A stretch of 24,895 bases of DNA from a virus. The position numbers and the translations under genes are program-made. Positions 8,395-20,535 of this stretch are shown here, piece by piece; positions within the stretch are counted from its first letter, which is position 1; every line of letters starts with the position of its first letter. The notes beneath the pieces are model-generated. The model ran no database searches, was not told where the DNA came from, and worked only from the letters and a program-made list of their open reading frames with translations. The stretch lies in the IMG/VR virus record IMGVR_UViG_3300014711_000007, positions 1-24,895 of that record, one strand, 5' to 3'.

Positions 8395-11300
8395 TTAGGC
8401 GGGCACGGTCCGCATGGCCACACCGTCACGGGTGACTTGCACCAACAGGTCTTTGGTCTTGAGGGTGTTGGTGGCGGTGGCCGCGCCGCTGGCTTCCAGC
8501 CGGGCGACTTGGGCGCGAAGGGCTTGCAGTTCTTGCAGCAAGGCGGCGTTGGGGTCGGCCTGTGGCGATGCGGTGGGCATGCTCAGCGGCTGCAGCTGGG
8601 GCGCAAAGCCTGTGCTGTAAATGGGCTGCGCGGGCGATGCGCCTGCAGGGTTGGTCAAGCTGGCAGCGGACACGGGCCGGCCGCTGATGAGGCCCAGCGT
8701 TTGGGCCAGCATGCCTGCGGTCTGACCCTGGATGCGCTTGAGGTCGATGGCGCTGGTGGCACTTGCAGCAGCGGCGTCGAGCAGCGTTTTGCTGAGCTGG
8801 GGCAGCGACTGCGCGGCGGTCTGGTCACCCGCACGGGCCTGCGCTGTGGCGATGGCAAATTGCGTCTGCGCGGTGGACAGGCTGTAAGCCGTGCCGGTGG
8901 TCAGCACGCCACGGATGCGGTTGATTTCGTCGGTGATGCTGTCGCCGATGCTGGCCCATGCGGAGCGCACCTGCTCTGCAGCGCGGGCCGATTCTTGCGC
9001 GGCCGATGCGGCGGCTGCGGCCTGGTCTTTGGCGGCTTGCTCTGCGGCAGCGTCGGCGGCTTGCTTGTCTTTAAGGGTCTGGATCTGGTCGTACAGGCCG
9101 CGATTGGCCTCGCTGATCGCGTTGCGCTCACGCTCACGCAGGGCTGCCGTGTTGCCCAGCAGTTGGTCGAGTTGGGTTTGCAGGCCTAGTGCTTCTTGTG
9201 TGATGGCTTGCTGGGCTTGGGCGGCTTGTTCTGCGGCTGTGCGGCTGTCTTGCAGGGCGTTGATCTGGTCGTACAGGGCACGGTTGCTTTCGTCGAGCGC
9301 GTTGCGCTCTTTTTCGCGCAGGGCTGCCGTGTTGCCCAGCAGCTGGTCGAGTTGGGTTTGCAGTCCGTCACGCTGTTGGGCGATGGCGGCTTGGGCTTGG
9401 GCGGCTTGTTCTGCGGCCACTTTGCTGTCTTGCAACGAGATGATTTGGTCGTACAGGGCTCGGTTGCTTTCTTGCAGCGCGTCACGCTCAAATTTTCTGA
9501 GCATGACGGTGTTGCCTTCGGCTTGCAGCAGCTGCCGAGTGAGTCCTGCACGCTCTTGCATGGTGGCCGCGTAGATTTGGGCCAGCTGCTGTGCGGTGGC
9601 CCCGGCGCCCAGCACGACTTGCGCCATGCCGTCGGCGCTCTTTTGCAGCAGCTGGTTGATGCGCTCCAGCTTTTGGGGTTCGCTCAGGCCGTCCAGCACG
9701 AGGCCGAGTTGCTCGATGTCGGGGTGCACTTGCACATCGCCCACGGCCATGGTGAATTGGTTGACTTTGTCGGTGCTCAGACCGAGGTCTTTGGCCATTT
9801 GCGCGGTGCTGGTGCGCAGGGTGACAAAAGCGTTTTCCAGAGCGGCGGTTTGGGCTGTGGCGGCAAGGCCTTGCACGCTGTAGCTGGGGCCGTTGAACAG
9901 GGTGCCGCCACGGCGCTGCAGGTCGTAGCTTTGCAAGCTGCCCGTGCCCAGCGTGCCCACCAAGCCACCACCCACGGTTTTTTCGCTTCGGAAAACGCCC
10001 AGGGCGTTGAGCGCGGCCACGGCGGCGGCGACGTAGGGCCCAGCTGCTGCGGCGCTGGCCATGATGGACGAGCCGCCTGCAGCGGCCGTGCCTGCACCGG
10101 CTGCGGTGCCGTAGGCGCCGTTGGCGGCCAGCATGGCACTCAGGCCGTCGCCGTAGACCGCTGCGGCGGCGTTGCCGTAGAGCGTCGCACCCACGTTGGC
10201 GGCGCTCATCGTGCCTGCGGCCCACTGAGCCCCCAGGCTGAATGCGGTGTTGCCCGCCTGGTAGGCGCTGTAAGCGTTGCTGGCAGCGTTGACGCCATTG
10301 ACGCCTTGGGCCGTTGCCATGCCCGGCGCACCCAAGCCCACCGCCCCCATGCCCAGCGTGACCACGCCAGAGATGACTGGGCGTAGGACCATGGTCTTGA
10401 ACATGTTGATCAGCGTGTCGCGCAGGTTTTGCGCAAAGGTTTTGCCGTTTTCAAAACCGCGCATGAGCGCGTCGCTCAGGGCGTCCTGGATTTTGTCGGC
10501 CGTTTTTTGCCATTCTTTTTGCGCGTCTTCGGCCGCTTTGGCGTTGGCTTTGCGCATGTCTTCCAATGTCTCGGCCGTGCCGCGCTCGCGTTTGGCCGCT
10601 GCCAGGTCTCGCAAGGCTGCGGCTTGTTCGCGGATTTTTTTGATGAGCAATTCGGGCTCGCCGGCCTCGGCCATGGTGTTGGCCAAGCGTTCTTTGCTGG
10701 CGGCGCTGTCGATGTATTTGGCGGCCGTCAGGTCGGCAATGGCTTCTTTGGTGAGCCCGATGCTGGCCATGGCTTCGCGCTCAGCTACTGCCTGTTTTTT
10801 GAGGGCTTCTGTGTCTTTTTCTGTTTGGCCGACAGCGGCGGCTTGGAGCTTGATGCTGTCCGAGATGTATTTGGAGACGTCTTTTTCGGCCTCGATGCGG
10901 CGCTGGATGTTTGCGAGTGTTTCGGCCTCGCTCAGGGCCTTGTCTTTTTGCAGGCGCACCTGTGCCGTCAGGTTGCCTTTGAGCTCTTCGCGGATTTTGA
11001 GCACGGCTTTTTCGCCGGTGGTGAGCTTGTCCATTTCGGCGCCTTGCTGCTGCAGGGCGTCCAGGTACAGCTGGGCCTCTTTGACTTGGGCGCGCAGGTT
11101 GGCCGCTTCGGATTCGCCTGCGCCCAATGCGCCACCGCCTTTTTTGGCGTAGCTGGCGCGGATCTGCTGGATGCGCTCTTCGATTTCGGCTTGGGTCTTG
11201 CCCGCCTTGACCATGGTCGCGGTTTGCTGCGCAATGTCGTTGCGCATCTTTTGCTCGTCGCTCAGGTACTTCAGGCCGTCTTGCTGCGCCTTGATGCCTG

Positions 11301-12657
11301 CCTCTTCGCGGGCGATGCGCTCTGCTGCGCTGTCACCGGCACGCTTTTGCAGGCGCTCCATCTCACCGATGTAGCCCACCTGCTCACGCAGCTTGGCGAT
11401 CTCTTTGTCGAGCGCGGGGGCAAAGGCGCTGTCGTTGCTGACGCGCTTGCGCTTTTCCAGCGCGGCTTCGAGGTTCTTTTGCGCCACGCTCAGTTGCGCG
11501 CCAACGCTGACCGGACGTCCCACGCCCAGCATCGCGTCCCATGCACCCGATGCGGCGTTTTTGATGCCGCTCCAGGCCCTCTCGATCGTGCCTGCGTTGG
11601 CCAACACTTCGGCGGTGCGGCCTTTGAGCGCCTGGTTGTAGGCATCTTGCGCCATGCTGGCGGCTTTGGTGGTTTGCCCCAGGTCTTGCGCAGCTTTGAT
11701 TTGCGCGTAGGTGCTGGCCGTCAGGTAGTGCATCGAATCGTTGAGCTTGAGCGATGCGGCCGCAGGGTCTTTGGCCAGGTCTGCAAAGTTTTTGGCGATG
11801 TCTTTGACGGCGATGCCCAGCGTGCGCTCGGCATCGAGGGCGGTGGTGGCAAAGCCCAGCAGGCTGGCGCGGCCCACTTCGCCGGTGGCAGCCAGTTGGG
11901 CCAGGGCGGCAGCGGCTGCGCCGGTGGTTTTGCCCCACCCCGCACCGATGCTTTCGGCCATGCCGGCGAGCTGGGCCACGCTGGCACCGGCGGCGTTGCC
12001 GGTCATGACGAGCGACTTGCGGAATTCTTCGGCCTCCTGACTGCCTTTGTAAATCGCGTAACCCCAAACACCAGCAGCTGCAGCGGCCACGGTGAAGGGG
12101 TTGACCAGGCCGACCACATAGCCGCCCAATGCGCGCGCGGCGTTGCCAGCGCCCCCAAACATGTCTTTGAGCTGCCCGCCTTGCTGCAACAACACGGTGA
12201 GCGGCGCTTGCCCGCCTTGCAACGACGTGACGATGTCGGTGAACTGCGCGGGCACGCCACGCATGGCCGCTGCGGTTTGTTTGGCCGATACGCCCACTTT
12301 GGCGTTGGCTTCTTCCACGGCGCGCATGGCGTCCAGGTGCGGCTTGATGGCGGCCATGTCGAGGCCGCGTTGCTTGGCCAAGACTTCGAAGTATTTGGCG
12401 GTGCCCTTTTCGCCTGCCTCGTATGCAGCGGTGGCGCGCTGCACGCTGGCGATCATGCTGCGTGTGGCGGTCTCTTGCTCTTTGGCGGAGGCTTTGGCTT
12501 GCTCGCCCATGCCTTTCATGGCTTGGGCGGTGTTGGCGGCTTCTTTGCTGACTTGCTGGCCCATGCCTTGGGCAGCGCGCTCAACGCGCTTGAAGCCGTC
12601 TTCGGCCGGGCCAGCGTTGACGCCTATCTCCAGCTGTGCTTTGCGGGTGTCGGTCAT
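8395..12657 (-). CDS. Tail tape measure protein, 1420 aa
   Basis: This protein sets tail length and spans the tail tube. The N-terminal region contains the lambda-type tape measure block at about residues 135-169 (VPAQFTDIVTSLQGGQAPLT onward), then a hydrophobic stretch at about 172-202. Long helical, Ala/Glu/Lys-rich coils run from about 400 to 740, followed by the RGFENGKTFAQNLRDTLINM block near 760 and a long Ala/Gly-rich hydrophobic region. Residues 1040-1219 are three tandem 60-residue repeats centred on NRALYDQI and LLGNTAALRE. The start ATG overlaps the stop of the GT frameshift product (12654-12656), as in lambda where H follows T. By the usual ~1.5 angstrom per residue rule the tail would be roughly 200 nm. 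Confidence 0.95.
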   Translation of the reverse strand: MTDTRKAQLEIGVNAGPAEDGFKRVERAAQGMGQQVSKEAANTAQAMKGMGEQAKASAKEQETATRSMIASVQRATAAYEAGEKGTAKYFEVLAKQRGLDMAAIKPHLDAMRAVEEANAKVGVSAKQTAAAMRGVPAQFTDIVTSLQGGQAPLTVLLQQGGQLKDMFGGAGNAARALGGYVVGLVNPFTVAAAAAGVWGYAIYKGSQEAEEFRKSLVMTGNAAGASVAQLAGMAESIGAGWGKTTGAAAAALAQLAATGEVGRASLLGFATTALDAERTLGIAVKDIAKNFADLAKDPAAASLKLNDSMHYLTASTYAQIKAAQDLGQTTKAASMAQDAYNQALKGRTAEVLANAGTIERAWSGIKNAASGAWDAMLGVGRPVSVGAQLSVAQKNLEAALEKRKRVSNDSAFAPALDKEIAKLREQVGYIGEMERLQKRAGDSAAERIAREEAGIKAQQDGLKYLSDEQKMRNDIAQQTATMVKAGKTQAEIEERIQQIRASYAKKGGGALGAGESEAANLRAQVKEAQLYLDALQQQGAEMDKLTTGEKAVLKIREELKGNLTAQVRLQKDKALSEAETLANIQRRIEAEKDVSKYISDSIKLQAAAVGQTEKDTEALKKQAVAEREAMASIGLTKEAIADLTAAKYIDSAASKERLANTMAEAGEPELLIKKIREQAAALRDLAAAKRERGTAETLEDMRKANAKAAEDAQKEWQKTADKIQDALSDALMRGFENGKTFAQNLRDTLINMFKTMVLRPVISGVVTLGMGAVGLGAPGMATAQGVNGVNAASNAYSAYQAGNTAFSLGAQWAAGTMSAANVGATLYGNAAAAVYGDGLSAMLAANGAYGTAAGAGTAAAGGSSIMASAAAAGPYVAAAVAALNALGVFRSEKTVGGGLVGTLGTGSLQSYDLQRRGGTLFNGPSYSVQGLAATAQTAALENAFVTLRTSTAQMAKDLGLSTDKVNQFTMAVGDVQVHPDIEQLGLVLDGLSEPQKLERINQLLQKSADGMAQVVLGAGATAQQLAQIYAATMQERAGLTRQLLQAEGNTVMLRKFERDALQESNRALYDQIISLQDSKVAAEQAAQAQAAIAQQRDGLQTQLDQLLGNTAALREKERNALDESNRALYDQINALQDSRTAAEQAAQAQQAITQEALGLQTQLDQLLGNTAALRERERNAISEANRGLYDQIQTLKDKQAADAAAEQAAKDQAAAAASAAQESARAAEQVRSAWASIGDSITDEINRIRGVLTTGTAYSLSTAQTQFAIATAQARAGDQTAAQSLPQLSKTLLDAAAASATSAIDLKRIQGQTAGMLAQTLGLISGRPVSAASLTNPAGASPAQPIYSTGFAPQLQPLSMPTASPQADPNAALLQELQALRAQVARLEASGAATATNTLKTKDLLVQVTRDGVAMRTVPA
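9001..9540 (-). repeat. Three tandem 180-bp (60-residue) repeats in the tape measure gene
   Basis: Units run 9540-9361, 9360-9181 and 9180-9001 in coding order, exactly in frame. The last two begin QTQLDQLLGNTAALRE and share long identical stretches of DNA; the first is more diverged (TRQLLQAEGNTVMLRK). Each carries an NR-A/G-LYDQI core. Unequal recombination here would change tail length in 60-residue steps. Confidence 0.85.
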
Positions 12658-13372
12658 GTGTAGGTCTCGCTCAGGGTGTCCAGGGCTTGCGCTTCCAGGG
12701 CGCGGATGTCGTCAAATCGGTCTTGCCAGTCTTGGCCGGTGAGGCCTTGGCGGTCCATCAGGGTGAACAGGGGGCCGTAGTCCAGGCCGATGCGGCGGCC
12801 GTCCATGCCGGCCGTGCGCCACTGGCTGGACACGGCGCAAAACAGGGCCCAGGCGGGCCAGTTTTCGGGCCACAGTTCGACCGGGTCGCTGGCGTAGTCC
12901 TCGGGCTCAAAGCCCGCTGCACGGGCCTCGGCCGCAGAGGGCAGCTGCTCAAATGCGGCCGCTGCCGCCGCCTTCAGTTTCCCAAGCGGCCGGTGGTGAG
13001 CGCGGTGTAGTAATCGCCCACCAGGGCCGCGATGGCCTGGGGCAATTCGTCGTGCAGCTGCATGATGTTGTCTACCGTCAGCTCTTCGTCCAGGCCCCAG
13101 CTGTCGAGCATGTCGAGCACGTCTTCGGCGTTTTTGCGGCTGGCCTTTGCAAACAGCGCGGCCAGGCTGCGCTTGCCGTCCTCGCTGGTGGCTGATTCAG
13201 CGGCGATGGCTTGGTCGGTGCTGGCGGTGATGCGGTCCCAGAACTCTGCAAATTCGCTGCGCGTGCGGTATTTGTAGCTGACGGGGATCAGGCCTTCGCT
13301 GCCGTCCAGCATGGGGACTTTGACGCTGTGGGCGAAGGCTTTGGGGCGGTTGCCCAGCTTGATTTTGCTCAT
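12654..13372 (-). CDS. GT tail assembly chaperone fusion made by -1 frameshift (DUF1799-like extension), 239 aa
   Basis: The first 132 residues are the G-like protein. At GGGAAAC (12983-12977) ribosomes slipping back one base would bypass the TGA at 12976-12974 and continue through CTG AAG GCG for 107 codons to the TGA at 12656-12654. The extension reads LKAAAAAAFEQLPSAAEARA, then GFEPEDYASDPVELW, PENWPAWALFCAVSSQW and GRRIGLDYGPLFTLMD, which matches the DUF1799 pattern of T-like extensions. The T part has no start codon near its beginning, but its coding sense is clear and its stop overlaps the tape measure start. The layout (slippery site, lengths, position before the tape measure) mirrors lambda G/GT, whose site is GGGAAAG. 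The fusion would bind the tape measure and recruit tail tube subunits. Confidence 0.9.
12974..13372 (-). CDS. Tail assembly chaperone, G-like, 132 aa
   Basis: This is the main, non-shifted product, starting MSKIKLGNRPKAFAHSVKVP and ending ALTTGRLGN. Features are an N-terminal beta part (residues 1-35), an aromatic helix (YRTRSEFAEFWDRITA) and an acidic helical C-terminus (ASRKNAEDVLDMLDSWGLDE, then TVDNIMQLHDELPQ). This fits tail assembly chaperones lying between the tail tube and the tape measure. The ATG at 13372 has GGAAA upstream; the frame extends further to 13504, but those 44 residues are low-complexity translation of the untranslated leader. Gene order tube - G - GT - tape measure is preserved from lambda-like tails. 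It is not a virion component in the known systems. Confidence 0.9.
   Translation of the reverse strand: MSKIKLGNRPKAFAHSVKVPMLDGSEGLIPVSYKYRTRSEFAEFWDRITASTDQAIAAESATSEDGKRSLAALFAKASRKNAEDVLDMLDSWGLDEELTVDNIMQLHDELPQAIAALVGDYYTALTTGRLGN
12977..12983 (-). promoter_or_regulatory. -1 ribosomal frameshift slippery heptamer GGGAAAC
   Basis: On the - strand G-GGA-AAC sits in the correct phase (zero-frame codons GGA AAC, then TGA), so both tRNAs can re-pair on GGG AAA. The stop immediately after the site is a common stimulating arrangement. Downstream, GGCAGC and GCTGCC segments could form a stem starting about 14 bases after the heptamer, but that structure is only a by-eye proposal. Confidence 0.85.
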
Positions 13373-19196: not shown

Positions 19197-20477
19197 TCAG
19201 GTGGCCGAGTTTTGGAAGGCCTTGACAGCGCCGCCCACGTCGATCAGGTTGCCGCCTTGGCGGTTGAACGCCACGAAGCCCACTTGGCCTTTGAGCGTGT
19301 AAGCGCTGTCGGTCATGCGGAAAAGGGTCAGGTCCATCACTTCGCGGATGGTGTAGGACTTGAAGTCACCGAACAGCACCGACTTGGCGTTGGCAGCCAT
19401 CTGGGGCATTTCTTGCGAGATGTAAATGGGGCGGCCCATCAGGCGGTCAGGTGCGCCGCCGGGGTTGCCTTGCTCGTAGCCGGGCACAAAGACGGGGCGG
19501 CCTTGGGTGTCCTTGATCTTGCGCAGTGCTTTGAGCGACTGGTCGTGCAGCATGTAACCCGCACCGGCGCGTGCGCGGTAGATCGGGTCCACGCTGTGTT
19601 CCAGATCCACCAAGTCGTCGTAGGTGATGCTGGTGGCAGTGCCTGTAGCGCCGGTTTTACCCACACTGGCGGCGGTGACGATGCCGCGTGGCTGGCTGGA
19701 GCCTGTGCCGGTGGTGAAGTGCTTGGCCGTGATGCGGCCCAGGCGCGTGGCCAACAGGCTGCGAATGTAGGCGTCCAGGTCGAACATGCTGTCTTGGATC
19801 AGCTCAAACGGCAGCGCGATGGACTTGGACGAGTACTTGAACACATCCAAAGTCAGGTTGGCAAATGTGGTTTCGAGCCCAGTGACGGGTGCGTTTTGGC
19901 CGACGATTTCGCCCTCTTCGGTGGTGGCGTCTGCAGTGGGGAACTGCATTTGTGCGCCAGTGCCGGTGGGCATGACGGTGGCCACAGAGCGAATGCCGCC
20001 AAAGGCCTTGAGCGCTTCCGTCAGTTGGCGGTAGTACTCAGTGGCCACGGTGAAGCCGCCTTCAGAGCCGGTGGTGGTGGACATGGCCGCACGAATCTCA
20101 GGCGTGACACGGGCGTTCAGGCGTTGCAGGTCTTCTTGCGCCATGGCGCTGAAGCCGCCACGGAAGTAGGCACGCAGGGCGCGGCTTTCTTCGGTGTTGC
20201 CGTGCTTGCCAGCGTTGCGGGTGAAGGCGTTGCGGTCTTCGTCGCTCACTGCGCCGTTGATGCCGTTCGTGCCGTTGGCAGCGCCCAGGCCGATGGCGGC
20301 CATGGCGTCGTTGTGGCGCTTGATTTCGCCGTCGATGTTGCCGATTTCGGCCATGGCGGTGTCGTACTGGGCCTGGTGTTCAGGCTTCCATTCGGGGGTT
20401 TTGTCCTTGTCAACCAGGTTGGCGAGGTTTTGGGCGAGGGCGTCGCGGCGCTCGCGCAGTGCGTGGATGCCTTTCAT
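19197..20477 (-). CDS. Major capsid protein, HK97 fold, 426 aa
   Basis: The N-terminal delta domain (about residues 1-70, MKGIHALRERRDALAQNLAN onward) is a helical scaffold segment that the prohead protease would remove. The HK97 core follows, with FRGGFSAMAQEDLQRLNARV, then the mature-type TPEIRAAMSTTTGSEGGFTV, VATEYYRQLTEALKAFGGIR, the E-loop (about 175-215, ATTEEGEIVGQNAPVTGLET) and the P- and A-domain parts including DSMFDLDAYIRSLLATRLGR and GTGSSQPRGIV. The start at 20477 has AAAGGAAA upstream; a frame extending to 20528 passes through a terminator and is rejected. Terminator hairpins flank the gene on both sides, and the ClpP-like protease gene precedes it. Confidence 0.95.
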   Translation of the reverse strand: MKGIHALRERRDALAQNLANLVDKDKTPEWKPEHQAQYDTAMAEIGNIDGEIKRHNDAMAAIGLGAANGTNGINGAVSDEDRNAFTRNAGKHGNTEESRALRAYFRGGFSAMAQEDLQRLNARVTPEIRAAMSTTTGSEGGFTVATEYYRQLTEALKAFGGIRSVATVMPTGTGAQMQFPTADATTEEGEIVGQNAPVTGLETTFANLTLDVFKYSSKSIALPFELIQDSMFDLDAYIRSLLATRLGRITAKHFTTGTGSSQPRGIVTAASVGKTGATGTATSITYDDLVDLEHSVDPIYRARAGAGYMLHDQSLKALRKIKDTQGRPVFVPGYEQGNPGGAPDRLMGRPIYISQEMPQMAANAKSVLFGDFKSYTIREVMDLTLFRMTDSAYTLKGQVGFVAFNRQGGNLIDVGGAVKAFQNSAT

Positions 20478-20501
20478 GGCGTTTCCTTTCTTTCGGGGGT
20501 C

Positions 20502-20535
20502 AAAAAAAAGCCGCTGGGCGTGATGCACAGCGGCT
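20502..20535 (-). terminator. Intrinsic terminator just upstream of the capsid gene
   Basis: On the - strand AGCCGCTG (20535-20528) pairs with CAGCGGCT (20516-20509) and is followed by eight T residues (20509-20502, the first in the stem). It lies after the protease gene and only 25 bases before the capsid start, leaving no room for a separate promoter. Confidence 0.8.

Follow-up and report, generated by a model that had tools for sequence, protein, structure and literature searches.

The tail region of this virus record, whose 24,895 bases we refer to as the window, raises a simple question: how is a conserved tail protein domain translated when its reading frame has no start codon of its own? 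The head and tail genes lie on the minus strand in the order terminase, portal, protease, major head protein, connectors, tail terminator, tail tube, G, T and tape measure; terminase and protease were identified by reading the open reading frames, and the other calls come from profile searches. Both members of the pair in question are recognised without difficulty (Table 1), G scoring 89.4 bits against Phage_TAC_4 (curated cut-off 21.1) and T 93.5 bits against DUF1799 (curated cut-off 26). The T frame is open from 13196, and its earliest ATG, GTG or TTG codons are GTG 12833 and ATG 12806, both within DUF1799, so that no such start lies ahead of the domain in the window. T thus overlaps the end of G in the -1 frame and has no start of its own, with the tail tube gene upstream and the tape measure gene downstream, which is the layout of a G/GT-type pair. 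We consider it very likely, with a probability of about 0.93, that a low-frequency programmed -1 ribosomal frameshift yields a G-T fusion chaperone, and hence that two tail-assembly chaperones are made from one start.

Table 1. Positions of the tail genes and of the elements around the putative shift site in the window
Feature	Coordinates	Strand	Evidence
Tail tube	14247-13534	minus	PF08813
G, tail assembly chaperone, 132 aa	13372..12974	minus	Phage_TAC_4 PF08748 E 2.7e-25; PHROG 569 E 1.4e-17
GGGAAAC slippery heptamer	12977..12983	minus	in phase G_GGA_AAC; sequence and conservation
T extension, DUF1799, 107 aa + stop	12654..12977	minus	PF08809 E 9.4e-27; PHROG 680 E 2.9e-28
G+C-rich stretch 3' of slip site	12918..12974	minus	family structure peak; window weakly above expectation
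Tape measure protein	8395..12657	minus	PF06791 TMP_2 E 2.1e-72

The zero-frame product begins at the ATG at 13372 and ends TTG GGA AAC TGA, with the stop at 12976-12974. The heptamer has the phase X_XXY_YYZ relative to G and abuts the stop, AAC being the last sense codon. After the heptamer, the -1 frame reads CTG AAG GCG and continues for 107 codons to a TGA at 12656-12654, and the reading frames of G and the extension together give a GT fusion of 239 aa. Most of what the preliminary description had claimed for this region was borne out: the G gene, the -1 frame and the 239-residue length from the reading frames, the phase-correct GGGAAAC at 12983..12977, the absence of an ATG-started gene for T, the DUF1799-like character of the extension by the profile search that it had proposed (PF08809, E 9.4e-27), and the end of the T frame in the start of the tape measure gene. 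Two of its statements need adjustment. It placed the heptamer one codon before the stop, which is right as to neighbourhood and loose as to distance, since AAC is itself the final sense codon and the heptamer touches TGA; and its 324 bases between G and the tape measure gene are the length of the T frame from 12977 to 12654, while the gap from the G stop to the tape-measure ATG is 316 bases.

GGGAAAC occurs once on the coding strand of the whole window. The other genes of the window contain in-phase XXXYYYZ heptamers of any type at a rate of 20 per 4959 codons, and from this rate the chance of a stop-adjoining heptamer in a single gene is about 0.4%; chance becomes untenable as an origin because the heptamer is conserved in relatives. 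Elsewhere in the window, an AAAAAAC lies in phase at 14921-14915 within the neck gene (15103-14657). Because the -1 frame entered there closes after 6 codons, this heptamer was rejected as a second shift site and is probably incidental.

Near relatives were drawn from IMG/VR and a Pelomonas genome. In all 27 of those with both G and T (L003-L028 and L030), T lies in the -1 frame and GGGAAAC is present in phase, with Gly always GGA; this is the conservation that the preliminary description had named as support, and neither a broken heptamer nor an independent T start, its two grounds for refutation, was seen among them. A wider set was assembled from named phages and DUF1799 matches from about 800 genomes. 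At every locus where similarity identified G, a search that imposed no frame found T in the -1 frame; at loci whose G was too divergent for this, a -1 partner reading frame was sought by frame alone, and this applies to the pooled table as well. The 95 loci reduce to 85 that are non-redundant at 90% T identity. An in-phase RRRAAAC is present in 80 of these 85 (44 AAAAAAC and 36 GGGAAAC); of the rest, 1 has AAAAAAG, 3 have no heptamer and 1 has no -1 partner. Three loci (L052, L067 and L072), with the heptamer 34-61 nt from the stop, are less certain. The 3 DUF1799 loci without a heptamer are those of Rogunavirus AHS24, Xanthomonas phage Valrath and Webervirus N141 (L043, L044 and L048); read by eye, two have A_AAA near the stop and one has A_AAG, which suggests that they use single-tRNA Lys slip sites.

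This breadth bears on the idea that a recent frameshift mutation or a sequencing error has split a once-fused G-T gene in which no programmed shift occurs. Fused or joined forms do exist, as indicated by the PHROG profile phrog_17368, which spans G and T within one protein. However, the same -1 relation and in-phase heptamer recur in the 27 close relatives and, with few exceptions, across the 85 diverse loci, and the recurring loci come from independent assemblies; such an accident is barely credible.

Chance across the family was addressed by synonymous recoding of the G genes. Over 500 recodings, an RRRAAAZ heptamer appeared in a mean of 5.4 of 84 loci, with a maximum of 11, as against 81 of 84 observed (the one AAAAAAG among them), and a chance heptamer was rejected on this null. 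Judged by sequence comparison, the slippery signal is real, strongly conserved and far beyond chance. Its form is also difficult to reconcile with the proposal that the heptamer is kept only for a Gly-Asn end of the G protein and has nothing to do with slippage. At the protein level, the near clade does conserve a C-terminal T/E-G-R-L-G-N. But Gly is encoded by GGA in 36 of 36 GGG loci, though GGA makes up 7.6% of Gly codons, and Lys by AAA in 44 of 44 AAA loci, where AAA usage is 36%; moreover, swaps between Gly-Asn and Lys-Asn keep the slippery form. The best T tree requires at least 10 switches of the heptamer from GGG to AAA or back, 3 of them forced by well-supported branches, and the slippery pattern was kept throughout. 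Codon choice and these switches together led us to reject protein-level conservation alone, which we regard as very improbable.

The stop codon next to the heptamer is the second conserved element. In 69 of the 81 loci the zero frame terminates immediately after the heptamer (45 TGA, 15 TAA and 9 TAG), and the first T residue is Leu in 79. Among these Leu-first loci an adjoining stop is found in 69 of 79, compared with about 11% expected when Leu codon usage is combined with the base that follows; since the comparison takes related loci as independent, the binomial odds against chance are overstated. The rare Leu codon CTA is used 24 times, forming TAA or TAG. On such codon statistics, the position of the adjoining stop looks to be under selection.

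The same codons speak to the remaining alternative, that T is a separate gene translated by re-initiation at the overlapping CTGA (CTG 12977) or from another non-standard start once G has terminated. The first -1 codon in the window is indeed a CTG overlapping the TGA, a layout like ATGA coupling, and the VarioGold, Aval and Marilyn records annotate T as a separate gene that starts further downstream. Against this, the place of the CTG is taken by CTA, which is not a start codon, in 24 loci and by CTC in 9, and because of these 33 loci CTG re-initiation was rejected. The window has no ATG, GTG or TTG from which T could be re-initiated ahead of its domain, and re-initiation leaves the fixed GGA and AAC upstream of the stop unexplained. 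Hence, we consider a separately initiated T improbable and programmed frameshifting the better account.

A more specific reading of the frameshift, possible though doubtful at present, is that DUF1799 chaperones form a stop-coupled -1 class, in which R_RRA_AAC runs straight into any of the three stops and slippage competes with the release factor. The A site would then be empty, with tRNA-Asn in the P site, while slippage vied with release-factor binding. In the family the last base of the heptamer is nearly fixed as C (80 of 81 loci), even though AAG is the shiftier codon in E. coli.

Candidate stimulators are seen as family averages. Predicted RNA structure peaks directly 3' of the heptamer in both the GGG and AAA groups (mean z of -1.64 and -1.50 at +4), with 34-44% of loci below a z of -2, as against roughly 7% elsewhere. 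Relative to synonymous recodings the mean z is -1.11 and -1.31 at this position and -0.31 and -0.57 further downstream, and in 27 of 80 loci the downstream structure exceeds the recodings at p<0.05. A Shine-Dalgarno (SD)-like peak lies 7-15 nt upstream of the heptamer in both groups. In the GGG group 81 of 100 recodings were equally strong, so that conserved residues explain the signal, whereas in the AAA group none of 100 recodings was as strong and the signal goes beyond recoding. As a family rule, then, RRRAAAC with an immediate stop is accompanied by added structure on its 3' side and by an SD-like peak on its 5' side.

The window itself follows this average poorly. Structure immediately downstream of its heptamer is not significant against synonymous recodings (z_syn -0.48) and is average for its composition (z of -0.46 at +4 and -2.1 at +28), and a consensus fold of 24 near loci predicted no pairs for a downstream hairpin. 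About 10 nt upstream an SD-like site is absent, the value of -1.7 kcal/mol being that of the gene body, and a dnaX-like, SD-stimulated -1 frameshift was rejected for the window on this ground. For these reasons the stimulators are described for the family only. Ribosomes of E. coli shift far less readily on A_AAA_AAC than on A_AAA_AAG (PMC5009743), and with no strong stimulator beside it the efficiency at the AAC site is uncertain.

Comparison with lambda shows both how close and how distant the parallel is. The order of tail tube, G, T and tape measure, a -1 shift near the end of G, a heptamer beginning GGGAAA and a T end overlapping the tape-measure start are common to both, whereas the lambda heptamer is GGGAAAG, 15 nt ahead of the G stop. 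The preliminary description saw a T-like gene repeating lambda G/GT. This holds for position and arrangement and fails for sequence: no relation between lambda T and DUF1799 was detected (hhalign probability 0.2%), and a profile search found no match in the window T to Phage_tail_T (PF06223), the family of the lambda and HK97 T proteins. Since no sequence relation to lambda T was found, we describe the window T as lambda-T-like in proposed action and do not assign it to that family. AlphaFold2 applied to T alone predicts a compact fold (mean pLDDT 92.9) whose top viral fold matches are annotated tape measure chaperones; no solved structure related to T was found by sequence or fold search.

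Among other phages, -1 frameshifting in tail chaperones is already known, including at GGGAAAC, and the window pair belongs to this known kind, as the following cases indicate. In Burkholderia phage KL1, a -1 shift was predicted for gp18/gp19 at a GGGAAAC directly before the TGA of G (PMC3483164), the same arrangement as in the window; there, however, T is Phage_TAC_18, to which no homology of the window T was detected, T is separated from the tape measure gene by an additional gene, and the shift is a prediction only. GGGAAAC is also the slippery site predicted for the archaeal virus HCTV-1 (PMC5009743) and reported for the pre-tape-measure chaperone of Caulobacter phage CcrColossus (PMC3556154, our source for that site), a protein remote by sequence whose fold matches the T model weakly (TM 0.73 by query length, E 0.19). 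The record of Serratia phage vB_SmaS-Smarc2 joins G and a DUF1799-type T as one frameshift product, in this case with AAAAAAC then TGA. The final C that the preliminary description singled out is present in the window; it is nothing peculiar, being the rule among DUF1799 loci and reported in other phages.

The same T family occurs in Vibrio phage Marilyn, Acidovorax phage Aval, Pseudomonas phage YMC11/02/R656 and Klebsiella phage RCIP0075, where the DUF1799 domain is likewise in the -1 frame and the stop follows GGGAAAC at once; their T identity to the window is about 45-50%, and their records split the pair into two genes or lack T. In Aval, the DUF1799 T (gp32; L032 859-1170) is labelled "FAD-dependent oxidoreductase", an evident misannotation, and in RCIP0075 T (L038 842-1155) is unannotated though the -1 frame after GGGAAAC TGA encodes DUF1799. 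Within the open literature, a scope that leaves out Xu and colleagues (2004), we found no match for DUF1799 with frameshifting, and the rule of RRRAAAC followed by a stop has perhaps been reported.

The mechanism that we propose follows lambda, where the G/GT frameshift is proven, with a G:GT ratio of about 30:1, and where binding to the tape measure protein falls to G and recruitment of the tube protein to T (PMC5009743). Most ribosomes would terminate at TGA 12976-12974 and release the 132-aa G, while a few, perhaps a few percent, would slip back one base on G_GGA_AAC, with the Gly tRNA leaving GGA to re-pair on GGG and the Asn tRNA leaving AAC to re-pair on AAA. The slipped ribosomes would read on through CTG AAG and complete the 239-aa GT. 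On the lambda model, G would form a coat on the tape measure protein, and tail-tube subunits would be recruited by the T portion of the scarce GT molecules. Reporters from a phage tail-chaperone cluster, not identified as DUF1799, gave a 6-7% shift (PMC3711429).

Translation of T would end at the TGA that overlaps the tape-measure ATG (12657-12655) as ATGA, and because of this overlap it is possible that tape-measure translation is coupled to that of GT or re-initiates after it. In 25 of the 81 loci the next long reading frame begins at or overlaps the T stop. In the head region, the major capsid gene (19197-20528) matches the DNA of Burkholderia phage KS9 (68%), whereas the G/T of KS9 is of a different kind, with AAAAAAA, which suggests that the histories of the head and tail modules differ.

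For the family, the outcome is a corrected gene model, with a predicted 239-aa GT in place of what public records split, truncate, miss or misname. RRRAAAC with a stop and a DUF1799 domain in the -1 frame is a simple rule that could annotate these chaperones automatically. Should the adjoining stop take part in the mechanism, these loci would offer a ready-made collection on which to study the competition between termination and -1 slippage in bacteria.
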